In this document: piece after piece, positions 1 to 30,500 of the stretch
Numbering within the stretch: the stretch's first letter is position 1
Layout of the letters: each line of letters begins with the position of its first letter
Assembly: GCA_032622095.1 (NCBI GenBank)
Contig: CP136063.1
Coordinates: 280,047,426-280,111,425 of the forward strand
Direction of reading: 5' to 3'
Source of the DNA: Siphonodentalium dalli
Lineage: Eukaryota; Mollusca; Scaphopoda; Gadilida; Siphonodentaliidae
DNA length: 64,000 bases
Position numbers and translations under genes: made by a program
The notes under the pieces: model-generated
What the model saw: the letters and a program-made list of their open reading frames with translations, nothing else
What the model was told of the DNA's origin: nothing
The model's database searches: none

Positions 1-69
1 CTGGGGAGCAGTAGATGGTCACTGAGAGTTTAGGCTCATCAGGGTAATAATTGTAATAATTTGGGCCTC

Positions 70-106
70 ATGGGATAAGGCACTTTACAAATGCTATATA
101 TTATTA

Positions 107-137
<31 letters not shown>
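70..137 (+). repeat. SINE or LINE 3' end with TTA microsatellite tail
   Basis: The segment around GGCACTTTACAAATGC, followed by a run of TTA repeats, is the usual 3' end of L2-type LINEs and of SINEs that borrow it. The 5' part is not recognisable. Confidence 0.5.
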
Positions 138-303
138 CAAGATAGTCTGTGTTATCTCAGTAGTCTTTGTTGTAACTACTTGGCATTCACAAATCTATTT
201 TTGATGTTTGCAGAAATGCCACATGCAACACTAAAACAATCCCCACAGCAATTTGTATAAATTTTGTACAATACAGTGGCAGGTAATGAAATGATGTACC
301 AAT

Positions 304-451
304 AATTTTAACTATAAAACCATCTACATGTGATGTACAGTGTTCACGCTGTCGGTAACCATGGTGATGTACTAACCAGTTTAACTATAAAACCATCTAC
401 ATGTGATGTACAGTGTTCACGCTGTCGGTAACCATGGTGATGTACTAACCA
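304..451 (-). repeat. 73-bp tandem duplication covering the USP24 exon 24 donor
   Basis: Two copies of a 73-bp unit start at about 304 and 377 and are nearly identical. The unit contains the last exon bases and the donor CTG|GTTAGT, so a second donor sits 73 nt inside the intron. Splicing there would shift the frame and hit TGA. Confidence 0.85.
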
Positions 452-548
452 GTTTTTCGTTAGCAAACAGCTGAATGTTCTCAAGAGAAATCTGTAATCT
501 GTGACCAACTTTCTGCCTCACCGACTCCAGAGTCTCATTGCTGTGGCA
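450..548 (-). CDS. USP24: USP24 exon 24 (last exon in the window)
   Basis: Encodes 33 residues (934-966), [19 protein letters not shown] and [14 protein letters not shown], the central part of the ubiquitin-like domain; it matches the family's HSNETIGSVRWKIAKQL. Acceptor TTTTTTTTCAG, donor CTG|GTTAGT. The donor is duplicated 73 bp downstream. The following exon is outside the window. Confidence 0.92.
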
Positions 549-3500
549 CTGAAAAAAAATAACTAGACTTTGTAGATCATTTCGATTGGGCACCAGTGTT
601 CATGTAAAACAAATACATTGGAAAGCCAAGACAAAACATAGTCCCATATAAATGGCCTTAATAACCAGATCTGATAATATGGTGCTGGACAGTGGGCTAG
701 CATCACCAATTCATCCTCTGTGGGCCTCAATCTGCATGGCCTCATTTGCTATGAGAGACCAAGACTCAAGATTTAAGTGCACCCATTGGGCATTGTGTCA
801 TCTACCAATTTAGACCTCATTCTGCAAATTTATGGCACCATATTTTTAGGCCTTTCAATAACCCTTATTCATGCTCAATGTGCATATGTGGTCACTTGTT
901 AGGGGTCCTTTGAGGAAATTAATGCATCTTCAGGGACTAGTCTACATGGCGAGATGAACGGCTTCACCATATGGTTGCTCTATTTCAACTTCATTTTGCA
1001 GCTGGGCAAAGTGGAAGTCACCCAGAAAATTTCAAAGTTAGCCGACGGAAATAGGAAAAAGGTCCTCAAAAACAACTTCATCTTATTTTTGTGGCAGGAA
1101 GAAGTCACTACTCCTTGAAAATAAGCTAAATGCTGGTCTGTATGCATCCTGTTATGTTTATAGGATTTGAGCATAAGAAACATTTGTGAAGGAGCAGCTC
1201 GTTCGTCTCGGGCATAACAGCTCTTTATAAAAGTAACTGATACTATTAAAGATATGGGCAGCATTCACGGTAGGTATTGCTGTTAAAATAGTAATATCTA
1301 CATTTACTATGATACTATCGTGAGTTGTAAGTTGTAGATGCACCACATTAGGGGTTTTACAACCGACGTATATTGCACGCAAATCTTAATAAGGAAATGC
1401 CGCAATATCGTGACTCTGCTAATAAACAATTCACTGTGGTTTTTGTAAGAAAAAATAAAATAAAATTGACCTTCTTTTTCTCTGACACAAATCCTGTTTT
1501 GTGAATAATATCGCATCCATATAATCATTATGCAATACTATTAGTATATCTTGAGGAAATTATCATAATTTTATGAATGTTTATATTTCTAAATTATAAC
1601 CTACAACAAAGGCCCACCCCTTTAACCCTTTACCCAACAGAAGGGCCCTGTGCCAATGCATTCTCTTATATATGCGAGTCGACCATAGGTCGCCTCGCAT
1701 ATATAAGAGAATGCATTGGCTTAACACATTAAAAATTATAAAATTGTTAAAGAATGTAAGAAAAAATGGTGAAAAGTGTTAAAAAAAAGATTTTTTTTAG
1801 GCCAATGCATTCTCTTATATATGCGAGGCGCCCTATGGTCGACTCGCATATATAAGAGAATGCATTGGCACAGGGCATAACTGTAACTATCACAATGTGG
1901 TCAAGGAGCCGGTTCCAATGATATCCATATTTGTATGGTTCTATTGAGACAGGCCGAAGATATTTTAGGCTGTTGAAGCTTTATTTGGCCGGTTTGTTGG
2001 GTAAAGGGTTAATTGATCACGATGAGATAATTAGGTCTAAGTTTATGTTTAGGACACATTAACTTAATTATATGTTTCTCAGGCACCGCCGCCCCCCCTT
2101 AAAAATACGCCGCTGGAAGCTTTTTATTCGACAACGAAAATCAAAAGTATATAAAGTGCCCGCCGCCTGCTATAAATGTGCACCCGCGTGTTCCGTTTAT
2201 ATCATGTGTGTAACTGCAGTTAGCCGGTCATTGAGTAAGGGCTATTTCCAACTACTCCGAACGCATATCGAACGCACCACCTCAAAAACATGGCGCTGCT
2301 AAATATTTGCGTGATTGAAAATGGACATGTATTGATTCCATGGAGGATAATCAACATAGACACTTCCGACACAACACAAACGGTTGCTGATAATTTTATG
2401 AAGGATAATTCCATTCATTGTGAATGTGATGAGAGTTCCGTAAATGTCAGTGTTTCCAAACGAAAGAGGGATGAGTTCGACCGTGCATCGATGGAGCTGA
2501 AGACGGCTGAAGTTGCGGACATATTTGGCCACTTCTTCCAAATAAATATACGAAAAACCTGCACCTTCCATTCACTTTTTATTTTACATTAAAATTTCAA
2601 TCAAAATCAAAACAGCCAGTCATATTTTAATTTAACCCCAAAATTCAAGGGTTTTCAATCTGCAAACATGAAACTACAAGTTCTTCTCGTTCCTACAGGA
2701 AGCTCAATACTATGATATGATGATGAATATATCTCCATGCTGTATATTAAAAGCTAGTTTTAAATTCTACTACATGCAGTACATGTATGGCAAATTGATA
2801 TTAATAACATTGACTGAACTGAATACTTTAAATATCACTTAAATAATTCAGTTCAGTCAATGTTATTAATATCAATTTGCCATACATGTACTGCATGTAG
2901 TATATTATATATCAATTTTTTCATCCACCTATGAAGGGAGACACATTTTGGCATCATCTTGAATCTTGAACAGGCATCTTGTAGCGCACCTCCCAATATA
3001 AAATTTGTTGTAAAAAGTCACGTATAAAAACCTGCCTCCCGCAAAATTTCCCCATAAAAATTAAGACATAAAAACCTGCTTTCCGGTAAATTTTGGTCTA
3101 AAATAATAAAAATAAATACCTACCTCCCCCCTTGTTTTGAAAATAAAAGTGCCTGAGAAACATATAATTAAGTTAATGTGGCCTTATATGTCACTTTAAA
3201 ATGCGTATCCCAGCCATCTCATATTTATTATTCACAGTTCACCTCTTGTTCTTTCTATGTTTTGTATGTATATGTGTATGTTGGAAATAAATTATCTTAT
3301 CCTTAAAATGTTCTGTGCGATCATGCACAATTACAATGTTACTCACCACAAGAACGAACTCTTGTTTATTTGATTCACATGTGACGAATAAGTTGATTGG
3401 ATAACCTTGGAATGAAGCACCATGGGGAGGGATTCCTCGTGGGCTCGTGTGAGATTCCTCAACTGTTAGAATGTACATCTCCGCTATCCATAAGAGTCGC

Positions 3501-6500
3501 TCGATGTTCAGTAGTACCTTCCCTCTGAAAGAATAACATTTAATATAGAAAGGGTAGAGACACAGGCAATTCACTGGGTTCAGAATGACGGTTCTATATT
3601 ATGAAATGTCTCAACTATGCGGGATGAACTATATCATAATTCTTTACGGAATGAATTCTCCCTTTCAGTTATATAAGAACATTGTCCAGGTCTATTCTTC
3701 ATTTGAACAGATTTTCAGGAAATCTAAGCAGACGACAGACAGACCAACAAATAATATGATTGCATAAAGATTTCTATTCATTAGTGGGAGATGTTCAGAT
3801 AACAACTTCAACAAACATCCTATTCTAAGGGAAGAGCTAGTCAATGAGTATTTAGCAAAGAAAAAGTTTTATTACAATCCTATGCGCGATTTCCATTGAA
3901 AATGCTGTTAATTAAAAATGGTAATGTCACTAGTGAATTATGTCATTTCTCGTGACGTCATTGACATTACGTCGCTCACTGATCTAACTGAATTTTCATG
4001 AATCCTGTGAGTTTTAATCTTATTTGGCGAACCAAATTGATGCAAAAGTGTAATTAATAGAGTAATCAATTAGTTCTGAGATTTACGTTCATAATTCACT
4101 CGAGGTGAGAGACGTTTGGATAAGAAACTTGTGCGCTAACGCACACTCGTTTCTTACCGACATCTCTCGCCTCTCGTGAATCATATAACGTAATTATCGG
4201 AACCAATTGATTACTCTCTATTTAACCATTTATATACTGAATACTCATTGATGAGTAGTTATCCTTTAGGAAATGTTCATATAATAAGATCTACAAATGA
4301 CAATTATTGAACTTATTATCTGAACATTTCCCATCAATGAAGAAGATTCCTTCTGCACTTTGTATTGTCTGTTGACTGCTCATATTTGCTGAACATCCCT
4401 CCAAATGAATAATAGACCATTCCAATGTATACGTTTATGACTGTGGGAGAATCCATTTAGTACAGAAAGGGTTAATAGAGAAGATCAACCTCGGATTTGT
4501 CTCTTTTCAGTAAAATAGTTCACAAACAAATAGATATTGCTATTCAGGCGACCTCTGGGAACAATTTGATTATAATATTTGGTTTTATACAGCGCTTAAC
4601 CAATTACTTGTTCTTTGTCTAAAACAGTCAATGAATTGACTGCGGCCTTTGTAGATGGCAGATATCCAATGCTCACAGTTATTGTTGCATTGGCATTAGA
4701 CCATACAATTCTCTCATAGCAAATAATGAATATTGAGGATCTCCAATGAGTTATATTGGGATATAAGATTTTATGAAACAAGTTTGTTAAATTTGATTCA
4801 CAAGGAGTAGACGAGTTGTGAATCAAATTTATCAATTGAGTTTCATAAAATCTTGTATCCCAACATAACGAGTTGAAGATCTTGTATATCACATTAAAAA
4901 ACTTTAGCTTTATGACTTTTTAACAAATCAAAATCCTTAACAGAAGATTAAAATTGCACACATTTCCATTGTTGGCTGAGATGCTTCACAACCGTATACA
5001 ACAGTATTGAGCACTCCAGCTGCCAACGGAAAATATAACGGCCCAATTTGCCTCTTTGTTTTTGTGTCTATTTTGGTTAGTGCACGAAGTTAGACAATAA
5101 TTTAACTTTAATGAACAAAGCAATCATTTTGCATTGTCTGGTGTTGTTGCCATGTGGGACTTTACGAAATAGTATTAATCTGCCTGATTCAATGTAAAGT
5201 CATTAGTTGGTGCCTTGCCAAGTTGGCGGGAAGCCCGCACTTATTCGCCACTAGTGAGAGATAAGAAAATATCTAATGGCTTTTTTAATGATATAATATG
5301 TGTTTCATGTGATATAGGCATACATACCCAGTAGGTAGAGGGATATTACCACCTCTGGCACTATTGCTGCGAGTAATGAATATAGGTATACATACCCAGT
5401 AGGTAGAGGGATATTAGCCACCTCTGGCACTATCGCTGCAGTCAATGTTTTTGTTGCACTTGACACAGTTTTAGCTATCACAGTTCCCCCAATACCAAAA
5501 CGGGCAATCTGGAAAAAACATATAAACCTTAACATCATCACTGCTATACTTCAGTACTGAGTCGTGTGCAATATATCACCACTAACATATAAACCTTAAC
5601 ATCTTCACTGCTATACTTCAGTACTGAGTCGTGTGCAAACATATAAACCTTAACATCATCACTGCTATACTTCAGTACTGAGTCGTGTGCAAACATATAA
5701 ACCTTAACATCATCACTGCTATACTTCAGTACGGAGTCGTGTGCAATATATCACCACTAACATATAAACCTTAACATCATCACTGCTATACTTCAGTACG
5801 GAGTCGTGTGCAATATATCACCACTAACATATAAACCTTAACATCATCACTGCTATACTTCAGTACTGAGTCGTGTGCAAACATATAAACCTTAACATCA
5901 TCACTGCTATACTTCAGTACGGAGTCGTGTGCAATATATCACCACTATTATACCCAAGATGTTCCTAATGTTTAGGAAAGCCTGTAATTCAGTGTTTTAT
6001 TGAGTGCAAGATATCGAAATGGAGTTTCTGATAATTGTCTACAACTGGGAACAGTTTTAGGATTTTAAGATAATCTCTGCAACAATTATCTGAATGTTTA
6101 GCAAATGACGTCATGACAATAGTTGGTAGTTAGAAGGTTAAACAAAGGATCATTATAATTTGAAGAATATAACATTTGGATCACATGAGAAATAAATTTT
6201 GAGATCAAACATTCATTAAAATTTTTCATTAAAGCTATAAATCTTTATATCTCTAATCAAAAGAAGAGAACTATATTAGAAATTTTAAAGAGTCTGCAGA
6301 AAAAGACATGTCAAATCGACAACAAAAGTGAAAGTACTCATATTCTGAAGAGTAGATTCCAAAAAAATTATTATTTTAAATAATGTATGGTGCAGAATAT
6401 CAAAACAAATATGTACCATAATATTTAGGTTATTTAAAGGCACGGATGGCCTCGGTTGTAGGTTATTAGTTAGAAATAAAAGTTTAGTATAATGATAGTA

Positions 6501-9500
6501 TGAATACGATATTATCCACAAAGCTCATTTGTGCGAGCCAAGCGTTTGTTTATATACAGCACATAAAAAGTGTGCGATATTAAAGCAAAACACTCAACAC
6601 CGTGGTGATTATTTTGGAAGAATGATTCACTATGACCCGTTCCAACACCAAAATACTGAGTGGTGAGGATTAGCGAGCGCTATAATGGTATGTTGTAACA
6701 GGGTTTCCGCTATGGGGGCAGCGGATCCCTTTTAAGTCCACTTTCCCCATATCCAAATTTACTCTCCAACTTACTTTCTTACCCGATCCACAGGTTAATA
6801 TCTACAACACATGTGTATATCTGCCGCTAAATAAAACCAACAGGGATTAATAAATAAAGATAATTTTATTTGCCCATTAACCCTTTACCCAACAGAAGGG
6901 CCCTGTGCCAATGCATTCTCTTATATATGCGAGTCGACCATAGGTCGCCTCGCATATATAAGAGAATGCATTGGCTTAACACATTAAAAATTATAAAATT
7001 GTTAAAGAATGTAAGAAAAAATGTTAAAAAAAGATTTATTTTAGGCCAATGCATTCTCTTATATATGCGAGGCGACCTATGGTCGACTCGCATATATAAG
7101 AGAATGCATTGGCACAGGGCATAACTGTAACTATCACAATGTGGTCAAGGAGCCGGTTCCAATGATATCCATATTTGTATGGTTCTATTGAGACAGACCG
7201 AAGATATTTTAGGCTGTTGAAGCTTTATTTGGCCGGTTTGTTGGGTAAAGGGTTAACGCTGACCACAAGTGAACCATTTGGCAAAATAACGAATGCTTTT
7301 CAGGGCTACACAAATTGACAATTGTATTAACGTATTCTAAAATACATCTGTCATGACACATTGCGATTATGTTCACAATGAACACTATGTTCTGACTGGT
7401 TCTCATTAATGAATATGTAGATGAGCTCCAGATGTTAGCCACTGAAGAATGATCAGGAATATTTCATGGTATAACATGTTGTTATGGATGTAGTGAAGTC
7501 TGATGTCATAATAAATTGATAATTTTAGGCCAAAAAAAAAAGTGTTTTGATTCTCGGGCATAGCCTCGTCTGGAAAAATGGCCCTCGTTGAACCATTTTA
7601 TTACGAATTTCAATTTGACCGAAGCTGTCAAATTAAAACACGAAAATAGGAAACTAGAAAACATAAATTATTTGTTTCAAACATCGAATATTATAGTCTG
7701 TACAGACATACAATGGTGTATGTGTTAGTATTCAAAAAACAGACACTAGGCAAGATAACTACCAGGTATATTGTCACCACAAGCTGCCCAAACCCCAAGT
7801 ATTGGCGATGTGTTTGCTGGTTTAATATAATAATATTTGAAGTTTTTATGGCTAGCATGTATAGTTACTATAGTATAGATGGATAAATATTAAAGTATAT
7901 AGATAGATATAAATAGATACATGTATATACTATAAAAGGTACATACATATTTCAAATATATCAACAATAGTAATTTGAAATATACATTGTATATATATAT
8001 CATTCTGGTAAATCCTATAATAGGCTATATGATGTAGGATAGTACAATGTCATATTTATGTCATTCTTTATTTAGATTTGATGAATGGGTACGCTGTGAT
8101 AATTGGTAATTCTGTATAGTGGAATACATTAGTTTATACAAAACAATGTTCTCCTTACATTTTCTTAACCTGGGAAGGTATAATAACCCATGCTATCTAT
8201 GGGCATTATCCCCATAACAAAAATAAAAAATAAAAATAAAACCCTCGCTCCCTCATCGATTCTCAAAAAAAATTGCCCGAGAATCAAAATACTTTTTTTG
8301 TTTGGCCTTAACATAACTATTTCCTCTACCAATGATGGCGGCTGCACAAAAAATTGTCAGTACACTTATTTTACCTACGAATTTAACTTGAAGTTTTGTT
8401 GCACAGTTTCCGGTACCTAAATACTAGTAGATATTCGTATATGGACTGAGTGGAAATAGGGGTACCATTCCCCCAAACCATAATATACCACAGTACAGTT
8501 TTAACCAAATTTCATGTAGTGGGATCTCCCCGGTGTTCAGTATTTTGCTTATCGCACACTCGTTACATACCGTACTGTAACATAACATGGCTTTTGTTTA
8601 GTAACACTGCATACAATCTTGACAATAACATGCTATTTATATGATATTTATGATCGGTATAACAACAAAATCTGTCTATATTTTAATACTCTTTGTTTAT
8701 GATGGTTTTAACAGATGTGACTATTTTAACAGCGATCCATATCTTTAATAAGAAGAGATGTATAGTTACAAATCTAGATATGATTGGGATAAACTAACCT
8801 CTAACCGCTGGTAACACTCAGTAATGAATTTCTTGTGAAGACTAAGAGGATCCTAGAGAAAATAAAATAATTGTTTTTAGTTCTCTGTTTATCTCAGTAA
8901 ATACACTGTTTATGACAATTGTATGCTGAAGGATTAGAGTAAGTCACAAAATTGTGACACAAATAATGGAGAAGAGATCTCCCATGTCTCCCTTTAGGAT
9001 GATCTATATCTTGGAGAATTGAGGTCAGGCAGATTTAACACCGCTTAACCTTTCATGATGCGAGCCTCGCATATATAAGAGAATGCACTGACTTGCAATG
9101 TCAAGGTAAATATTGTTAGGCCAATGTATTCTCTTATGTATGCGAGGCTCCCTATGGGACTGGCACATGATCTTTAATGCTGCACCAGCACAGCTCCCGT
9201 AATGAAAGGGCTAATCTTTCTCTGTTCAGTATCTTTCTGCCAGTATATACCATTTGGCTTACAAGGTCATGGTAATTATTATTAGGCCAATGTATTCACT
9301 TATATAGATGAGGCTCCCTATGGGAGACTATATAAGAGAATGCATTGGCACAGGGTTTTCAGGAAGCTCCAGTCAAGGAAGGGTTACTATTAATAGAACT
9401 GGTTTAGTGACATTAGAAATTGAAAAATATAGTTATATTATGGCTAAGATGCTGAACATTACAGCCAGCATTATTGCACAGCATCCATTAAGAACAATTT

Positions 9501-12500
9501 AACAACAATCTTCAGAAACGCTTCAGTGACAACTGATGAAGGCTTTAAAACAATTGAATTTTTACGTTGACCCAGACAACCCTAAAGTTCTGAACATAAC
9601 TTCGGTTTCTCAAAAACATTGACCCAATTAAAACATTGAAGCGCATGAATGTGTATGGCAGACCAGAACATCCACCTATTCGAGGCAACTATATAGAAAT
9701 TTACAAGAAAACCTGATACTGTACCAATGCAAAAATTCATAGGAATGTATTGACATTGACAGCTTTGGTACTCTTGAATACTATGGGTGAATTTTATTTA
9801 TGCCATAATTATTAATTTTGATTTGTTCAGCAAATTTATCTGCTCTGCTATTTACTTATAATATGTATTTATATCGAGTAACCCAAAAAACGAGGCCATA
9901 AGGAATGTGAGTCACACGTAGCAATAGACAATTCAACGTCATCTGCCTATTTCTAAGCCATCAGTCAGTTGATATTCCCTTTCATATTTCCCTTGTCCAC
10001 CTTACATGCTACGTTTGATTGAAAAGCAGGTAATTTTTCTCAAATTCAATTGATATTTCAGATTTTAAATGAATGCAACATAGGAACTAATTTTGTCAAC
10101 TATGATGTAGTAAAGGTATATCAGTTATAGGAGAAACATTTACACTCATAGTAGAAATTTATACCCACAGAAAGGTGTAAAGCTGAAATTTACGAAATAG
10201 TTGTTACACACACATTAATTATAACATAGGTGTGATTGTGGTATAAATACATGAATCTCACCTTTTTGTACCTGGCACTGAGGTTAGTATAGGACATGAA
10301 TCTCACCTGGCACTGAGGTTAGTATAGGACATGAATCTCACCTTTTTGTACCTGGCACTGAGGTTAGTATAGGACATGAATCTCACCTTTATGTACCTGG
10401 CACTGAGGTTAGTATAGGACATGAATCTCACCTTTTTGTACCTGGCACTGAGGTTAGTATAGGACATGAATCTCACCTTTTTGTACCTGGCACTGAGGTT
10501 AGTATAGGACATGAATCTCACCTTTTTGTACCTGGCACTGAGGTTAGTATAGGACATGAATCTCACCTTTTTGTACCTGGCACTGAGGTTAGTATAGGAC
10601 ATGAATCTCACCTTTATGTACCTGGCACTGAGGTTAGTATAGGACATGAATCTCACCTTTTTGTACCTGGCACTGAGGTTAGTATAGGACATGAATCTCA
10701 CCTTTTTGTACCTGGCACTGAGGTTAGTATAGGACATGAATCTCACCTTTATGTACCTGGCACAGAGGTTAGTGTAGGACATGAATCTCACCTTTATGTA
10801 CCTGGCACTGAGGTTAGTGTAGGACATGAATCTCACCTTTATGTACCTGGCACTGAGGTTAGTATAGGACATGAATCTCACCTTTTTGTACCTGGCACTG
10901 AGGTTAGTATAGGACATGAATCTCACCTTTTTGTACCTGGCACTGAGGTTAGTATAGGACATGAATCTCACCTTTTTGTACCTGGCACTGAGGTTAGTAT
11001 AGGACATGAATCTCACCTTTTTGTACCTGGCACTGAGGTTAGTATAGGACATGAATCTCACCTTTTTGTACCTGGCACTGAGGTTAGTATAGGACATGAA
11101 TCTCACCTTTTTGTACCTGGCACTGAGGTTAGTATAGGACATGAATCTCACCTTTTTGTACCTGGCACTGAGGTTAGTATAGGACATGAATCTCACCTTT
11201 TTGTACCTGGCACTGAGGTTAGTATAGGACATGAATCTCACCTTTTTGTACCTAGCACTGAGGTTAGTATAGGACATGAATCTCACCTTTTTGTACCTGG
11301 CACTGAGGTTAGTATAGGACATGAATCTCACCTTTTTGTACCTAGCACTGAGGTTAGTATAGGACATGAATCTCACCTTTTTGTACCTGGCACTGAGGTT
11401 AGTATAGGACATGAATCTCACCTTTTTGTACCTGGCACTGAGGTTAGTATAGGACATGAATCTCACCTTTTTGTACCTGGCACTGAGGTTAGTATAGGAC
11501 ATGAATCTCACCTTTTTGTACCTGGCACTGAGGTTAGTATAGGACATGCTGAGTAGAAGTTGGATAGCAGTGTTAGCTATAGACTCGTCTAACGTATTCA
11601 GGCAGATCTCCCACAGGAAGTCAAGACCCAACAAGTCAGACTTCTCTACTGTCTAAAAACAAAAGGAACAACATTCAATGAAAAAGGTAGTGGTACACAA
11701 TTTCCTCCAATATTATTATGTAAAGGTGTACTATACTTTGAATTTACTTTGAACCATTTTGGATGGCAAAATGGATGTTGTTTGTTTTATACATAACTTG
11801 TCAGAGCAATCATCTGTTGTGCTACTTATTACTAAACATGGCATTCGAATTGCATTTGACCTACATCAGACAAAACATTATTGACTAAAACTGACCTTTT
11901 CAGTCCTAAAGCGAACCATGATAAAGCGATTGTCAGCAAATGAGCATTTGCTCACCTGATAGAAATGGTAAAAGAACATTTTTTTTTATTTAAATCTTCA
12001 AAATTAAGGGGTTCTTGCAAAGTTTGCTGATTTTTTATCGTGGTCAAAACCCATGACCACATTGAATCTGCTGTTTATTACTTATATATTTAATACCAAA
12101 TTCATTATGAATTAGGATTGCTTTATATCTTTCCCACTATTTAGCCAACTTCATTTTAATCCATGGATTGGATAATCTCTCAATTCTTCCAATTAAAACG
12201 CAAATATTCTGAGAACAAAGGGCCAAAAATCAAATTTGAGCTCGACCTGTATTTTGGGGTAGTAAACATTCCATTCAGTTCAAACTTACTAAGGTTATCA
12301 TCTGGAAACGAAAATTGAGTGCAAATTCAGACCAAAAGGGCCATAACTCTGGTGAAAATTGGCGGGCAGACCCAAATTCGAACTTGACCTGTATTTTGTG
12401 CAAGTGAACCCACATACCAAATTTCATTCCATTCAGTTGAGATTATCTCAATTTATCATCTGGAAACAAAATGCAAACAGATGGAAGGACAGATGCCCCA

Positions 12501-15500
12501 ATGGACAAGACAGACCAATGACATAAATGGGCGTATAAAAAACTAGTCAAAGGAAAAGAATAGTAGTATATACCAGCTGCCCTGCTAACATCCTCAGCTT
12601 CTGTTCATATTTGTTGACATATTCAAAGTAACACTGGAAGCATTCAAATCCTGCAAAGCAATAGGATGTCAATTATTATCAGAAACCTAACAAAATATCA
12701 TGCTGGATATTTGCAGAATGAGGTCCCCAGATGGTTAATTTAGAATTTCTCTGAAAAGTAACCACAATTACCGGTACCTAAAAATGCTGGAGAAAAAGTT
12801 TTGAAAATAAAGTGAAGATCTTTTGTGGTTGAATACGACTCAAATTTGACCTCAAACCACACAGGCTAAACACCAATACGAACCCCTTACCCGCATTTGT
12901 TACCCGCATTTCCGAGCATCCTTTTCACAACCCCTTGACCCCTCTACACTGACCAATCAAATTGGAGACTCATAACACACAGTATATAAGGCGAGCAAAA
13001 TCCTCAAAAAATCACACGCCAAACTCGGTCCTGATGAAGTTAAACAATAACGAAAGCGCTCGACCTTTACTGCAGGTTATCTGAGGGTTGAATTTTTTTT
13101 CAATTTTTTTGTCTCAAACAATGAGCATTGAATATAATTGAGTGGGCAACATTCCATGGGCAACTAGCAAAATAATATATAATTCCAGAATAACAACTGT
13201 CGGATTTTATATTCAACGAAGTATGCAAAGAAATGTTATATTCAGATACAGTTTAACAAACAGCCTAGGAATAAAGTGATCATTTGTACTTGGATAGATG
13301 TGCCAAAAAAGAATTGACCATTTTTTAAACTTATTATCTGAACATTTCCCACCAATTAATAGAAATCCTTAGTGATGTTCCGATAATCGGAATCGGAATA
13401 GGCCGATGATAGCCCATCGGAAATTAATCGTACCTCGCAGTTGAACATCGGCTTTTACCGATTGTCAAAATAAATAAAAACGTTCTAGTATCTAAGCGCA
13501 ATGTGCACGCTTTAATAAACATACGCAATACAACTGTAGTATTGAATGTAAAACGCAGTTGTAACAGCCTAAAAAGAAGCCATTGGCATCATCAAAGCAG
13601 TCTGATATGATGATATATTATAAGAATGGCAATACACATGCACGACATCCCGTGTAATATGAAGTTATTGGTTCAATCGCGTTGACACGAAATAGATTCA
13701 AAGAAAGCTTTAATTAAAAAGCTGACCTGATTACAGTGAGGCTTCCTCTAGAGCACGTGTCATGTGACGTCACATGCTATGTAAATAACTTGAAGCACAC
13801 AATGAATGAATTAATACAGTTGTTATCAGAACTGTCTTCAATAACGATCAACGTTAGTAGGGGCATAATTAGCTTTTTCGTCTGTACAACGTATGCTATG
13901 AAATACGCTTAGCTCCACGTTGAACTTGCGAAACAAAAATTGAGCAGGCGGAACTATAAAAGCTTCCGAGTTGTTAAAAGATAAAAGGTGTGACCAATGG
14001 AAACTTGGGAAATCTCAGACAAATATGACAGCAATTATTATCCATCAATCAAAATTTAGTTAATAATCATCGCCATTCCATGCATTGTTGCAACTTACAA
14101 GTATTCAATCAAGACTTTTACTCCACATGCAAGTGTTCCACACATGGTCATAACGTTACTCTGAGTCGGCACCTTTGATCTCTTTGTCAAAACAACTACC
14201 GGTATACATCAAAGGAAGCACACAACCGACGTCGGCAGAAATACTGTCACGACAGTGTGTATATATTTCTTTGATGTATTTGGCTTTGAAACTATGCGGG
14301 ATATGGAGTGCATTGGGTGTATATAAGTCCATTATAGGAACAAACGCACAATATATATAAACATCGGAATCGGAAATCGGCCGATTGTGCCTCCAGTTAT
14401 CAGAAATCGGTCCGATAAGCTTTTTCATTATCGGAACATCACTAGAAATCCTTCTGCACTTGTATTATCTTTTTGTTTGTATTTCATCTGTTCATATTTC
14501 CAAAACACCCCTCTGTGCAGATGAATAATGGATCATTTTAATTTATACTTTTATAACTGAAAGGAGATTCCATTTGATATAGACAGGGTTAATACTAACC
14601 TTTTGGGGAGAGCTTAGCAACATCTAAGTGAAGTAATTCCTTTTGAAAGAACTGATTCTGAGTTTCTGCTTCCAAATCTTTAATACTCTTTTTAAACCAT
14701 TCGTAACATGTCTGCATTATAAAAATGTGAATTAAATACCATATAATCGTAACCCTTTCTTCACTGGAGCTTCCTGAAAGTTTACGAAAACCCAGTGCCA
14801 ATGCATTCTCTTATATATGCGAGTCTCCCATAGGGAGCCTCGCATATATAAGATTATGTGCATTGACCTAAAAATATTTACCTTGACCTTGTAAGCCAGA
14901 GCATTCTCTTATATATGCGAGACTTGCATATATAAGAGAATGCATTGGCACATGATCTTTTATGTTGCACCAGCGTAGCTCCTGTCATGAAAAAGTTAAT
15001 TAAGAATAAAAATGAGCCGCATATTATCATAAATGTTTGTTTTCTTGCATTGATATAACTTGAATAGTATATAATATATAGAGAGTAATCAATTGGTTCC
15101 GAGAATTATATAATTAATTCACGAGAGGCGAGAGACGTCGGTAAGAAACGAGTGCGCACTAGCACACGAGTTTCTTACCTAAACGTCTCTAGTGTAATAT
15201 ATTCATTTAATTTCTTCATATAAGTTAAACAACCTTACCTAAGTAGTATAAATTTATTAACTGCTTACAACTCTCTGCAGAGCCATGAGCTGAACACTAA
15301 TTATCATTCAACGTCCAATCAAGCGACCAAGTTTGAAAACAATTAACTGGAAAATGAAGGAATACAACTTTTTGTAGATAGACAAATACATGAACAGTGA
15401 ATAAACTTTCTAAATATAACTTTAGCAAAATAATTTCTAAATTAAGAGTATAATAATACAGAAAAAAATGCATGTAAGTGTCAAAATGCAATAGATAATA

Positions 15501-18500
15501 CTTTTAAAATCAAGTGGAACAGAGTCCAAATACTTTTTTCTACTAATGTTGAATCAACAGTTTAAGTGCTCAACAAGCCTTGAAATAGTGTGTCTGTCAT
15601 TTGCAGAATGAGGTCCCCAGAGGGTGAATTTAGTGATGCTACCCCGCATAGCCCACAGGGAGCCTCACATAGAAGGAAGCATGCACTGCAGAGTGTCATC
15701 TGTTCCAGTCTAAATGGGGCTCCCTATGGGTTTCAATATGCTTGAGTAGCAGGTTTTTTGGGGACGAGGCTTTCCCTGAGAAACGCACTATTTTGTTTAT
15801 CTGGCCCAATATATATGTTTGCTTATGAGATCCTTTGCCATGTTATCTGTGTTGTCCACAAGTGTGGAAATAGTGTATCTGCAGAATGAGGTCCCCAGAG
15901 GGTGAATTTGGTGATGCTAGCCCACTATGCAGGGTAGCATCACTAAATTAACCCTCTGGGGACCTCATTCTGCAAATGACAGACACACTATTTCAAGGCT
16001 TGATCTCATTCTGGATTGCAGATCTATTATGAAGTTTATAAATGTTAAATATTGTTCAGAAAGAAAAAAATCTTAACCATACTGATATATATATTTTGGT
16101 TTTCGATAGAGACAATAATTAACTTCTTGAGATAAAGTCCACGGACCCTGGGAGAACAGAACAGATCTCACCTCTCTATCCCAGTTACATGCCTCAGGAG
16201 TAGATACAAGTGTCGTCCATATATCTCTGGCCCTGTTCCATGGCAGGTAGAATACTCCTTCTTGTAATAAGTATTGCAGAAACGAGAGGTGTGCTGTGAC
16301 ATACTGTGAAAGTAAAATAAAGTGAATGGCTCATGATATATGTGTATGGTTTAAAGGGCTTTGGCACTTACAGTGGGTAAATATGAAAAAAATATAAAAG
16401 TCTGTAAAAACATCACCACTAAAGGGACCCAAGGTACTCGCAGTGGGTAAATGTGAAAAAAATATAAAAGTCTAAAAACATCACCACTAAAGGGACCCAA
16501 GACACTCGCAGCGGGTAAATGTGAAAAAAATATAAAAATATGTTAAAACATCAGCACTAAGAAGAACATAAACTTCGCTCTTATATTCATTATTGATAGT
16601 TCTCAGATAACGATATTTCAAGTGTTGATAGCATTGTATGTAAACAAAACTGTTACAGTGATTTGTCAACAAACATCGCAAATCGTGCAGTAAGTTCAAA
16701 TATTTTAGAAGGAAAAAGATTTTCAGAAATTTTTTCCATACTGCCCCTTTTCCAATATTTAATGTTAAAGGGGGACTGTACACTAAATCCGACCATTTAT
16801 GGGAATATCTCCTATTATACTCAACAGAATATAATGAACTTGAGCCATGGATGATTTGAGTAAACTAGAAAGATTTTAGCTATAAAAAGTCTCCCGAATT
16901 TGAGCCAGATCTCCTAAATTTGGAAGATCAATCTCCAGAAATTGGCACTCCAGAAGTAAACATGCCTGGTCCGTAGTTGCATACTTGAACTAGCTAAGCT
17001 AGCGATAATGACTTTTGAATATCTGCTGGGTTGGTTTTTGCAGGATCAAGCACAGCAGTGGTGGAGTTACTTACACTAGAATGCTTGTATCGACTATCAA
17101 CAATCGTCTCCTCACAGAGCTGGCCGTCACCCACACTCCCGACAGCTTGCTTGTGGCACTTCATTAAACTGGCCGTTAAAAGCTTAATAATCTCACTGCT
17201 TTTAAGCTCTTCTAGTATGCTCTGAAATGATGAACATAGATTGTTCCAACAAGAGTTCACACTGTCAGACCAAGTATAGTCGGTCCACAACAGCTAAGGA
17301 TATCGGTTGGGTTGATGCTGTTTTGGACTGAGTCCCATTCCATTACTCTTCTATAACGGACTTTACACCCAGAATTTTGTGTGGGAGTTATCTTGCTTGT
17401 ATGCCTTCGGATGGAAGCTTTGTGTCTATGAACAGGGCAGCCATTCCCAAGAATGATCATATCAAACATGCGTGTATAAGAGGTCTGTTGAATGTCAAAG
17501 CAACATGATTAATAAGCAAAGAAAGTCTTGTTTTCCAGAGAATTTTGATTTGTCGCGCTATCAGAAAATGTATATAAACAATACATTAAATGTTCATATC
17601 ATCACTGTACCTCTTTCTATGACGGTAAATGATATATCATTTTGCAGATTAATAGCGGAAATGTCAGGTGATTAATCACAGTCAGGTGTTTATGTGAATG
17701 CCCGGGCTCCATGTGTTCATGTAGTACATCTTTTGAATGAAAGTCCATTATAGAAGAGCAATGGGGATGGACTCGGTCCAAAACAGCATCAACCCAACAG
17801 ATATCCCAAGCTGACGCACAGCGTATCTCCCACAGATGTGGCTTTCACTGAGGTTTATTAATTTTCTAAGGTGGCTTATATTTGAAAGCAAACATATATA
17901 AAAAACAATTCCAAAACTACAATACAATTAAACATGATGATCCCATTTAGATAAATTGTTGCCTATTTTAATGTAATATGTATGCTTATAATGCAGTATT
18001 TGATAGTTTTGTGATACCAATCCGTGAAAACAAATATTAATTTTGTTTCCTTAATTTGAAATCTCATAAACATGGCTTACCTTATCGGTCTTCTGGAAAT
18101 TCTGCTTCAGGATACTCATGCTGATAAGATGTAAATGTTTGAGGAACGGAAGAACACATCCACCCTACAATGAGAAATAATGAAAGTGTCAATCCGGCTC
18201 AATATGGAGGAAAATGTTTGTTTGAAGTAATGTTTATTAATGTGGTACTCTGAAAGGACAGGGACAGAAAATAATGAAAAACACTCACCTGTTATGGTAA
18301 TTAGTAGGTTGTAGGTTGGTATGAATTGTCGTAAGTAAATTGCTTTTTAAGTATGATAACTTAGATCAGGCCTCAGCCTAGGGGTTCAGAACAGGGAGAC
18401 TTGAAGTCTCCCTCCAGGAAATTTAGGGAGACTTCAAGAAATTTATGGGGGGACTTCAGGGAGAAGTGGGGAGACTACCAAAAATTGACAATTTTCAAAT

Positions 18501-21500
18501 ATCGCTTTATTTTATAACATCAATAAAAAATTTAAAAAGTTAAAATAAGAAATAAAACTAAAAGTTTTTGACTTCATCTGAAATTAGTGTAATTAATTGT
18601 TATTATACATTTAACAGTCTGAATCATGATCAGCCGTGCTCTGATAATTAATGTCAGATTTGGGGACTAGATCAGATGATGCATGTAACTTTTTAAGTTT
18701 AATTTGGTCACGGCTATAATGTGGGTGTCCGCTAAAATAAACAATAAGGACTAACTAACAAAGGAGTTGCTAAAGCTTTTATTAATTAATGGCCTCCCTT
18801 AATTAATGCCAACATCACTGGTATAATCCGATTAAAGCAATAAACTTGACATTTATTTACGGCTACGGAAGCAGTCTATTCAAAAAGTGGGACGCGCTCT
18901 CTTCAAAAAGTACGACGCGTTACCGAAACGAACTTCCGAACATACTCTGATAATTGCGTAATTGTTTTTATATCTGAAAAGCGGGATGGCGGTCTTTTAA
19001 GTTAATTAAAACATTTATTTGTGAACCTCACGATGGTCAGTAACAACACAGATGCGAACATATCGTGTTTTCAGCGTGTCAAAACATTCGTGATTAACAT
19101 TCATTACCGCAAAGCGAACAAAGGCGACTGAATAACAACACAAAACAATAGGTCATATTTTATTTTTTATTTTAAACACTTGGGTCTTTGTCTCTGAATC
19201 GTCTGTTTCTTTTTGGGATGGCCGCCACAATTTATCTATATACGGACATGTCTGGGGGAAAAAACTAGAAAAAAATTAAGAAAAAAAATCCCCCTAAAAT
19301 TGAAGGCGACTTCGATTTCGCCTTAGAGCGACGATAGGGCGAAGTCAGCGACAGTAAGGCGACAATCTCGCCCGAGTCGCCTTGTGATCTGAGGCCTGAC
19401 TTAGGTATTTAGGTTTTTGGTGTACCAATACTTTTTGTTATTAAAATATAGTGTAACTGATTTTGCCTGTGTTAAGCTCTTCAGGTGAATTGTCACAAAG
19501 CCACCATAAATGAAGGAGAACACAACATCTGTGACCTCTCATACCATGTCATACAAGTCTCACATATGGACCCATATATCGAGACCAACATTCGACAGGC
19601 GAAACACAGAATATAACTGGATGTTACTACTAAGGACATTATATCCAGAGGGCACGAACAGGTCAGACATCTTATGGTGAATAATATTAATCTATTATAT
19701 CCATAGGGCACGAACAGGTCAGACACCTCATGGTGAATAATATTAATCTATTATGGTACTTAGTCGACATATCATGTTCAGTTTAATAAGGGTAGATAAT
19801 CAAAATAGTTTGTTTCTCAGGGAATATTTTCTTCAAAGTGAAAACCCATCCCAGATGTATATTAGACCATTCTAATGTATACTTGTTTAACTGAGTGGGA
19901 AAATCCATTTAGTATATAAAGGCTTAATTCCCAGGAAACAATTTGACCTCAATGAATACACAGAAAGAAGCAAGGACGTAAGTCGGTTTTTGGGCAAACA
20001 CTTTCCCACCAAAGCATCCGCTTGTTGCAAAACCAGGGCCTTGGCCAGTGACCAGTCCACCTGTAATTTTGGACGAGTAGTTTACAGAGTGGACGGGAAG
20101 TTTAAAAAAATATATATTATTTTTTGTCATGTTTTTTACCACCAATGTCCATAAGTAGTGATTATTATTAGTGCGCAGAACACATGGTTTCTATCATATC
20201 CTTGTGTAAAGTGTATGCACATAACATGTAGAGTAAAGTTGTCTTTCACTTCTTCAAGTAGATATAAACTACATTTAGGAAAATAAGTAGGTGATCCTAA
20301 TTTCAGCCTACCTATGACAGGGGGATGGCCCCTCTCATACTCTCCCCCTCCTATATGTACTGTGTCGGCCATCGCTTCACGATGGATTTGGACACCCTAC
20401 TTCCAATTTCTGGCTAAGGCCCTGGTCAAAAAGTCGCACCTCTAGTTGAATCAGAGCCTTGTGTTTAATCCCTGATAAGACATTTTACATCAATTTTATT
20501 GTTGATCTACAATGAAAAAATAGTGAGATGTGTCCTTTTGATACTAAAACATCTTCTCTTAACAACGAATTCAACGAAATAGCTCTAGCAAAAACTTGTA
20601 AAAAAATATTTTGAGTGATTACCTGCAGCATATTACAGTAGGTCAGCTAGGAATCAAGTCATATATTCTCAAGGGGTATGTTTTGCCTCCCTTCAGACAT
20701 TAGTTTATAAACAACGGCCAAAATATTAAAATAACTTAAATTTTTCTCTCCTGAACAATGACCGAATCAGCTTGTTGTCATAACAACTGAATGCAAAAAG
20801 CAGCTTAATACCTACCTTCTTAATGTCTTCAACACACTTGAAAACATACTGTTTTTTCACTTGATCCCTGACAGTGTCTGAATCACTCAGAATAGCGAGG
20901 TGTTCATCAAGAGCATGCTCAATCAACCTTGTAGATAACACAGGCAAGTGTGCCAAGTCCCAAAGCAGTTCTAGGGCCTGAAATTATTGAGCGAAAGATG
21001 GCTGATATCAGACAGTCTGTAAAATGTTATATACACTGCAGCCAGCTATAAATGTGATGCTTTATTTAGTGAATGAAGGGAATCATGAGCATAATTGTCA
21101 ATCTCAACAGATTTAATATTGTGATATTGTTTCAACGGAAATTCACCTCTGCCAGGACTTGCACTGTATCATGAAAAAGAAGAGATGACCACAAAAGTTG
21201 GGAGAATTTGATAATATGCCACTCTTGGCACTTCGGAACAGTGAAAGTCTATTCAATTATTTCACACAAAAGGGCGCTTAAATTCTTGAGAAGCTTTCTA
21301 TAGTAAACATTTTTATTACTACTTTCATAACTAAAACTAGCCTAAGATTAATGCCATATGTTCAGATTCTTCTAACAGATACTTTTTTCCACCTTGATAA
21401 TATAAATGTGAGAACATTATGAGGGCCTATATGAGGGTATATGAACATACCTTAGTTGTGGTTTTAGTGAGTTTGGCATCCTTCCCAATTCTCCCTATTA

Positions 21501-27500: not shown

Positions 27501-30500
27501 ACTTGGATTTCAAAAGGCATGCTCTTTATCAAAAATGTTGGAACATTTCATTGGGTATAATGACCCCATAAATTAAAAAATAATAAAATTTGTCTGCTTC
27601 TATATCATTTCTAATTGCATATATAAATTCCTTCCCAAATGGAATATAGTTCCAGACTTTCAGATACTTTCCCATTTCAGATCTGTTATCATTTAGCTGC
27701 ATGTACTCTGTCCACCACCTAAGGCTTTCCATGTTATATGATAAATTTGAATAAGGAGTGTTTTGTTACACGGTATCATTAAAATAAAATTATAAAAAAC
27801 AAAAACCTGCCTCCCTCATCTGAAAAATTTGAAATAAATAATAATAACATATACCTGCCTCCCTCATCACTTTTGATTATATACTATACCTGCATCTTCC
27901 AGATCATAGTGAGTTCCTCTGAGAGTAATTTGGCACCGAGGAATTCTACAATTCCCTTTATTTTATCACAGTATTGTACCTGATCTATACTACCTGTAAA
28001 ACAGATGATACTGTTTATTGAAGGATGTAAAACAGATGATACCGTTACTGGAGGATGTAAAACAGATGATACCATTTATTGAAGGATGTAGACATTAAAC
28101 AACAATACAACTTTAGCTAACTCTCTTTGTGCCAGTAGAGCCATTTGAAATAATTAAACAAGAGCACCTCCAGGACAAAATACGCTAGGGCTGAAATGGT
28201 TACAGGATTTTCATGACCGGTTTACCATTTGAATTAACCGAGGTTAACTGGTTGACCACAGGCCTATATTGACATATGATGTCCATATGAAGTCTATTAT
28301 ACACAACAAATGATTCAACTTAAGTCAAACAAAGGCATGGAAAACAAACACCGAAATTGTCGCTAACTTGTGAACGTTCGTGCATATTCAGGGAAATCTG
28401 CAAACCTTGGCAATTTCTGTTCTGCAAATGCGCAAATGAGTTCCATATGAAACTTGAGTGGTTCCTACAATCTTTACTGCACAGTAATATACCATCCATA
28501 CATATGTGGACATAGGTAAGTAGTACTGCGAGTATGCAGACAGTAAGATTAAATATTAAAACAAAATAAAGATGACTGAATATAATTTCCAATATGAATA
28601 AATCACAAGTTTTAACATGTACCATTAACCCTTTACCCAACAAACCGGCCAAAAACGGCCAAATAAAGCTGCAACAGCCTAAATTATATTGGGTCTGTCT
28701 CAATAAAACCATACAAATATGGATATCATTGGAACAGGCTCATTGACCACATTGTGATGGTTACAGTTATGCCCTGTGCCAATGCATTCTCTTATATATG
28801 CGAGTCGACCATAGGTCGCCTCACATATATAAGAGAATGCATTGGCCTAAAAAAAATCTTTTTTTAACACTTTTTACCATTTTTTCTTACATTCTTTAAC
28901 AATTTTATAATTTTTAATGTGTTAAGCCAATGCATTCTCTTATATATGCGAGGCGACCTATGGTCGACTCGCATATATAAGAGAATGCATTGGCACAAGG
29001 CCGTTCTGTTGGGTAAAGGGTTAACAACATACTAGTAATCTGGAGTCATGGGATTATATTATATTATTGTAAGATTTATCTGAGTGATTAATCAAAGAAG
29101 CTGTCATATATAGGCCTACTACAAGTAGTCACATTATAGAAATAGACTTCAGGTTTAATACATCCTGTCGGAGCACATGCTTTTTTCCTGCTAAAATCAT
29201 AAAGGTCATACATATATAGGTCAGGTGTTAATTATCGATATCGATCCCTATTATTTAATATTTATATAGCAGACAATGGTTCTCAGTCAGCATATTTTGC
29301 TCCTTTTCCAGTTTGCACTGACACCGAAATTGACACATTAACACTCATTGATAAACATTGTGATGTTAGTTATACTGTCAGGAGTATGTCATGAAGATCA
29401 AAGACCCCCTGTGAGCTTTGATGTAACAACATTGCTGACTTAATACATTGTGTTATCAAAATTATTCTCATTGTCATAACACTTTGACTAAGGTGAGTTA
29501 ACCCTTGGGATCCCAGCATTTGGCTACATTCATCTGGCTATATGTTGGTGCTTAATCACTGCACTGTCTGCTTATGGTTAACCTGTCATGCAAATTTCAT
29601 GACCGGTCATGGTTGCGGTGACCGGTTAACCAATTGACAGGTTAACCGTTTCAGCCCTAAATTACATCCATGATAATTCCAATAAAGGACCATGATTCTG
29701 GTGAATATTGGTGGGCAGATCCCAAACTCGAACTTGATCTGTATTTTGGGCTAGTAAACTCGCATACCAAATTTATTCCATTTAGTTCAGACTTGCTAAA
29801 TTTATCATTCGAAACGAAAATTGAATGCAAATTAAAAAAAAGGGGCATAACTCAGGTAAAATTTGGCAGACCAAACCCAAATTCGAACTTGACGTGTATT
29901 TTGTGCTAGTAAGCACACATGCCAAATTTCATTCGATTCACTTCAAACCTTCTCAAGTTATCATCTAGAAAACAAAAAAGAGAACGGATGGACATATGGA
30001 TGCCATAATGATGGACCAATAACACGTCCCGTTTTTTTAAAACAGGCATAAAATATATAGAACTAGACTGAAATCCAAAACTCCTTTCTGATCACAAACC
30101 AAGTCTTACAAGTTGATTGTTTCCAAACTAGGTAAAAAAACACCCTGTGGCAAAAGAGTCTTAAAAGTTTCAGCGTGTCATATTTTTTTAGCTGTTTCCG
30201 ACATGTGAATGTCAACCAAAATATTGCCAATAAAATAAATTTTTTATAATTTACATGGGATCATTAAAAACACATTGCCAAAATTGGAAGCTAGTATTAG
30301 AAAATTATGTTGTGGATTACATAATTATTGTTGTCATAATCATTTAAAACATGCTAGTTTGTGATTTTCGAAGATCAATATCAATTTGTCATGTGGTAGA
30401 ATTTTAAAAGAATACTACTGACCTTCTAATGCTATAGATAATAGTTTATTTTGAAGCAGCCATTCCAGTATTTTGTCAGACTGTATTGCGGTTTTAGGAA

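Follow-up and report, generated by a model that had tools for sequence, protein, structure and literature searches.

The window, a stretch of 64,000 nucleotides of Siphonodentalium dalli DNA, carries on its minus strand a USP24-like gene in which the end of one exon is repeated in tandem together with its 5' splice site, as the sequence-only reading of this DNA had proposed. Seven exons of the gene match the Pfam family PF25010 (ARM_UBP24_USP9X-Y) over the cut-off, and this ARM scaffold is found in the exons neighbouring the array; by itself the array exon has no Pfam match. We take the gene to be probably USP24 rather than USP9X, a label that rests in part on the presence of a distinct USP9X-like gene on C4. 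The UCH catalytic domain is expected beyond the low end of the window. The features at the array are as follows, with a stroke marking the exon-intron border here and below.

12574..12650, minus strand: exon before the array exon, 77 nt, 26 residues, joining TVEK in phase 0 (from splice sites in the sequence)
11512..11652, minus strand: array exon, 141 nt with the first donor (GT at 11511-11510), 47 residues (sequence and USP9X match)
10249..11548, minus strand: tandem array of 29 units of exon end plus donor, the donors of units 1-27 being in frame (TRF and sequence)
10241..10253, minus strand: intron at the far end of the array, CATGTATTTATAC, a near copy of the unit start CATGTCCTATAC and the likely seed of the first slippage (sequence)
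8799..8852, minus strand: exon after the array exon, 54 nt, 18 residues, in phase 0 with the donors of units 1-27 (sequence and USP9X match)

At 10249-11548 TRF finds 29.1 copies of a 45-bp unit with 97% matches. Read in the sense of the gene these are 29 head-to-tail units, all 45 nt long except unit 28, which has 35 nt. The unit length is the one originally read from the sequence, although its division into 33 nt of exon and 12 nt of intron is not: in all units but unit 28, 36 nt of exon end (12 codons) are followed by 9 nt of intron at the donor AAG/GTGAGATTC, so that a single unit reads ATGTCCTATACTAACCTCAGTGCCAGGTACAAAAAG/GTGAGATTC. The units are nearly identical, as had been noted, with 21 of the 29 belonging to the main type A, and the variants are ordered along the array (AAAADADAAAAAAAACEFAACAAAACABA, where B is the 35-nt unit, number 28). 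With a 5' splice site in each unit and unit 1 continuous with the exon, the array has the make-up of a splice-donor minisatellite. Within the exon part of the unit (for example 11512-11547) lies TACTAAC, which is the branch-point consensus of yeast, with CTCAG and TGCCAG after it, so that each unit also resembles a branch site with an acceptor.

The same reading had pointed out that the period is a multiple of three and that the frame is open for about 27 units, and this holds. As in a coding VNTR, the frame of the gene runs through units 1-27 (27 of 29); it ends at an in-frame TGA in unit 28, which is without 10 nt. Because of this stop, use of the last donor was set aside. An overlapping gene on the plus strand was likewise rejected, the 418-aa frame found there being a by-product of the period. 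Two of the six frames of the main unit are open, and for a unit that keeps the 36 exon nucleotides the chance of an open intron part together with a period divisible by three is about 0.30. As a repeat the array is far beyond chance, but judged from the sequence the openness of its frame is unremarkable and can be chance.

An open frame of this kind had suggested that donor choice gives graded proteins. In that case several of the 27 in-frame donors would be used, and between 0 and 26 extra 15-residue copies would lie between two ARM helices, with a length dependent on the allele. Consistent with this, the frame is open in 36 of the 64 units of a second copy of the gene, described below, by unit order; every unit of the array keeps its GT in both copies, and strength does not separate donor 1 from donor 27. 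There is also a known parallel. Human IFI6 (6-16, G1P3), whose unit is 12 nt, reportedly has a minisatellite with multiple splice donor sites, an account that goes back to Turri in 1995. According to one report, two downstream repeat units of IFI6 are used as donors, giving three mRNA species (PMC4526556). Single-sequence AlphaFold2 draws the S. dalli repeat as regular strands, with a mean pLDDT of 73 in the best of five models and of 48-65 in the others, a prediction that carries little weight for identical repeats. However, an open frame is likely enough by chance, and insertion of units breaks the alignment to USP9X. When unit 1 is joined at KK/D to the exon at 8799-8852 the product is collinear with USP9X 784-844 over the junction (E 5e-8), with two one-residue gaps that both lie upstream of the border, whereas with three units joined to the next exon the match is split into two weak pieces (E 0.005). 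The border KK/ is therefore taken as ancestral. Considered together with the order effect among donors and the disruptive effect of most second donors, both set out below, this makes graded proteins an unlikely outcome. A common exon border in the C4 paralogue was rejected, as the C4 exon reads as ending earlier, at ..YLWR. The next exon has the donor GTTAGT (8793-8798) in the window copy, against GTAAGT in the second.

A search of the array against its own genome, in which the best candidates were scored, gave one other place, at C3:281.235-281.238 Mb in inverted orientation. This second array belongs to the same exon in an inverted second copy of the gene, which lies 1.2 Mb from the first, and the idea of a satellite that has spread apart from the gene was accordingly set aside on the best candidates scored. 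The two gene copies are collinear, with 1.4% mismatches over 49 kb aligned and many insertions present in one copy only, on either side. More widely, C3:279.70-280.11 Mb and 281.19-281.52 Mb are inverted near-copies, a partial 90% match tying 279.70 to 281.52 Mb; no partner was found for 280.25 Mb among the 40 of 3028 candidates scored. A genome search with window positions 1-20000 did not return the second gene copy among the matches listed, which were filled by a repeat. An element of about 1.08 kb lies at 13369-14444 and shows 97-99% identity in all 38 places scored genome-wide, and is probably a recent mobile element; the window at 55.9-58.9 kb likewise has many near-identical copies in the genome.

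The homologous arrays have 29 units in the window copy and 64 in the second copy, in line with the expectation of variable length as far as these two copies go, which may be alleles or paralogues. The 64 units run as 26 A, C, five A, C A C A, twelve 35-nt units and sixteen more. Since a C-A-B run of units is common to both arrays, the sequences suggest that the array probably predates the separation of the gene copies and has changed since in at least one of them. Alleles misplaced in series by the assembler seem a likelier account of the two gene copies than a true duplication into paralogues, partly because chaperonin matches in this genome also occur in close pairs. Chaperonin genes are normally single-copy, and such pairs indicate that the assembly may be imperfect, which would allow that the assembler also inserted units into the array. 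The array is not an obvious artefact of this kind. The second array has its own variant order, the variants in both are ordered, twelve 35-nt units lie next to one another in the second copy, and the lengths differ at two places with common flanks. Units inserted by the assembler would seem highly improbable.

The ends of the array suggest how it may have begun. Before the first duplication a distance of 45 bp would have separated CATGTCCTATAC from CATGTATTTATAC, which makes them plausible partners in slippage, and the start would have been a 45-bp tandem duplication over the exon-intron border, probably through slippage between the exonic and the intronic CATGT..TATAC. The resulting minisatellite could then have expanded and been homogenised through unequal exchange or slippage.

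TRF was run on both gene copies (84 and 80 kb) and the output was combined with reading of the sequence. Beyond the array at 10249-11548, four exon ends have donor-spanning tandem repeats, one of them in the second copy only, making five in total; the copies at the five ends, window gene against second gene, are 29/64, 1/4, 2/2, 4/5 and 2/4. The further repeats in the gene are the following.

21450, window gene: 63 bp at ..TTTK/GTATGT, one copy here and four in the second copy, in an exon with a PF25010 match
5312..5447, minus strand: 68 bp x 2.0 at ..LPTG/GTATGT, 2 and 2 copies, which reads as an exon end from the frame and splice sites
46 bp at ..SKD/GTAAGT: 4 copies in the window gene and 5 in the second copy, from frames and splice sites
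37 bp at ..EEDR/GTAAGT: 2 copies in the window gene and 4 in the second copy, from frames and splice sites
27995..28090, minus strand: 31-bp x 3.1 array adjoining an exon acceptor without copying the AG, x5.1 in the second gene copy

The exon ends LPTG, SKD and EEDR lack a family match and were placed by frames and splice sites, and the SKD exon could end earlier, at CAG/GTGCGA. Both copies have GT at the first donor of SKD, with AT in units 2-3 of one copy and units 3-4 of the other; unit 2 of the second copy retains GT, and the last unit is GTGTTAGT. Like the array at 27995-28090, a 40-bp x 8 array at a kinesin exon on C6 (L094, C6:198652020) adjoins the acceptor without copying the AG.

Exon ends elsewhere in the genome were sampled with 300 bases upstream and 400 downstream, at 100 kinesin exons of 123 listed matches and 40 chaperonin exons of 53. 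The kinesin loci were hand-picked before the arrays were seen, omitting eight near-duplicates, the 14 weakest matches and one long open frame (similar ones were kept), while the chaperonin criterion was written before the loci were fetched and omitted two long single-exon matches, nine near-duplicates and two loci for the size limit. Myosin matches were left out of the sample; at C4:274.2-275.5 Mb myosin heads occur in eleven copies of similar score, on both strands over 1.3 Mb. Donors were called by a simple score, and arrays spanning them were accepted at a period of at least 20 and a TRF score of at least 90. The script found such arrays at 9 of 100 kinesin and 3 of 40 chaperonin exons. It misplaced the donor in L051, which is still counted, and missed L079, which was added by eye to give 10 of 100 kinesin exons and 13 of 140 in total; L029 (31 bp x 2) is possible and is uncounted. 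Roughly one in eleven sampled exon ends therefore carries donor-spanning repeats. The units, of 30 to 95 nt, look unrelated between the sampled loci. Acceptors were called by a cruder script, and the four flagged loci were read by eye, the array in L094 merely adjoining its acceptor; arrays that include an acceptor numbered 2 of 140 by script and 3 of 140 after this reading (L067, L098, L109), with none among the 40 chaperonin loci. Such arrays are rarer in the sampled exons than those spanning a donor (3 against 13 of 140).

Arrays also appear to start more often just before donors than elsewhere. With L079 uncounted, the 105 bases before the donor hold 12 array starts (9 kinesin and 3 chaperonin) and the three following 105-base intron bins hold 10 (1+1, 3+2 and 3+0), giving 3.3 expected per bin; the binomial p for the excess is 0.003 for both sets, 0.0075 for kinesin and 0.17 for chaperonin alone. 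The density over longer stretches gives 4.7 expected against the 12 observed. An excess of this sort would be predicted if arrays were kept because many donors recruit U1 better or protect against mutated donors where, as in this genome, introns are long. The excess comes mainly from kinesin, however, with 3 of 6 starts in the chaperonin set, and the bins were fixed after the kinesin output had been seen and, in outline, ahead of fetching the chaperonin loci. Coverage shows no excess, as arrays occupy 9-13% of the two gene stretches and 13 of 140 donors lie in arrays. Nor are array donors significantly weaker than others (p 0.30, comparing 13 with the 110 of 127 other exons that have a donor call near the match end), and compensation for weak donors was set aside for this reason. 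The excess upstream of donors is suggestive only, and that arrays are retained as a reserve of donors appears improbable. A more general possibility, which we put forward tentatively and hold to be somewhat doubtful, is that in this animal the 5' splice site is a preferred spot for tandem amplification, with about one in eleven internal exons carrying a donor array, copy number in the USP24-like gene mostly differing between the copies and a natural set existing genome-wide. If so, such natural donor arrays would allow the choice of donor by order to be read, along with the decay of donors and the occasional extension of the protein.

Among the 18 donor arrays considered (13 sampled and five in the USP24-like gene) are 13 in which splicing from donor 2 would change the reading frame or introduce a stop; a normal protein is compatible with these 13 only through donor 1. 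The remaining five are L067, L105, L134, L137 and the array at 10249-11548, and two of them have lost the second GT. Outside the two arrays of 29 and 64 units, GT is lost in 10 of 64 later units, the first donor being GT by selection; four of the ten losses are in L137, where the array continues as a second stretch of the same 39-bp unit. The period, by first spacing, is divisible by three in 9 of the 18 arrays against six expected (p 0.11), which is a weak hint that a later donor may occasionally be used. When human reporters carry two equal donors, it is predominantly the first that is used, and acceptors show no order effect (PMC6783452), a result obtained in human cells with two sites.

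It would seem likely, from these sequence features, that the array is a minisatellite lying over the exon-intron border, of which the first donor is spliced and the rest is intron, leaving the protein normal. The spliceosome would take the first donor, beside the body of the exon, the exon would stay at 141 nt and the other 28 units would form part of the intron; later in-frame donors may serve at a low level, giving rare isoforms with 15 more residues per unit. If the first donor is used, and acceptors have no order effect, arrays at donors could build up at little cost. Such a first-donor rule would make them nearly invisible to selection, which would explain why they recur in the genome, and the repeated exon ends found here are probably harmless, the first copy being the one spliced.

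The nearest relative in layout is the IFI6 minisatellite, the one precedent found for the class. Both are tandem arrays whose units hold splice donors, two downstream units being used in IFI6 mRNA (PMC4526556). The S. dalli array differs in having 45-nt units, far longer than those of IFI6, in 29 or 64 copies, and in lying in a conserved scaffold gene; arrays of the same layout but with other unit sequences are found in further genes of this genome. In the literature on donor-spanning tandem repeats beyond IFI6, in which few subscription papers were covered, no genome-wide set is reported. The layout also resembles tandem 5' splice sites used on a 'first come-first served' basis, with equal donors in series after one exon, although those are two designed sites in human reporters (PMC6783452) and the S. 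dalli arrays are natural. As in intron gain by tandem duplication, a duplication copies splice-site sequence; there the duplication lies inside an exon and makes a new intron, whereas in S. dalli it is an existing donor that is duplicated, and no gain of an intron is invoked.

The choice of the spliceosome among identical donors has been studied with designed pairs, and in S. dalli many conserved exons of a single genome apparently carry natural arrays, with between 2 and 64 donors each and with decay of the later donors in some of them. Gene predictors may mistake such arrays for coding sequence. If the first donor is always used, this would explain both the tolerance of arrays at donors and their rarity at acceptors; if it is not, the arrays would be a large natural source of variation in protein length.
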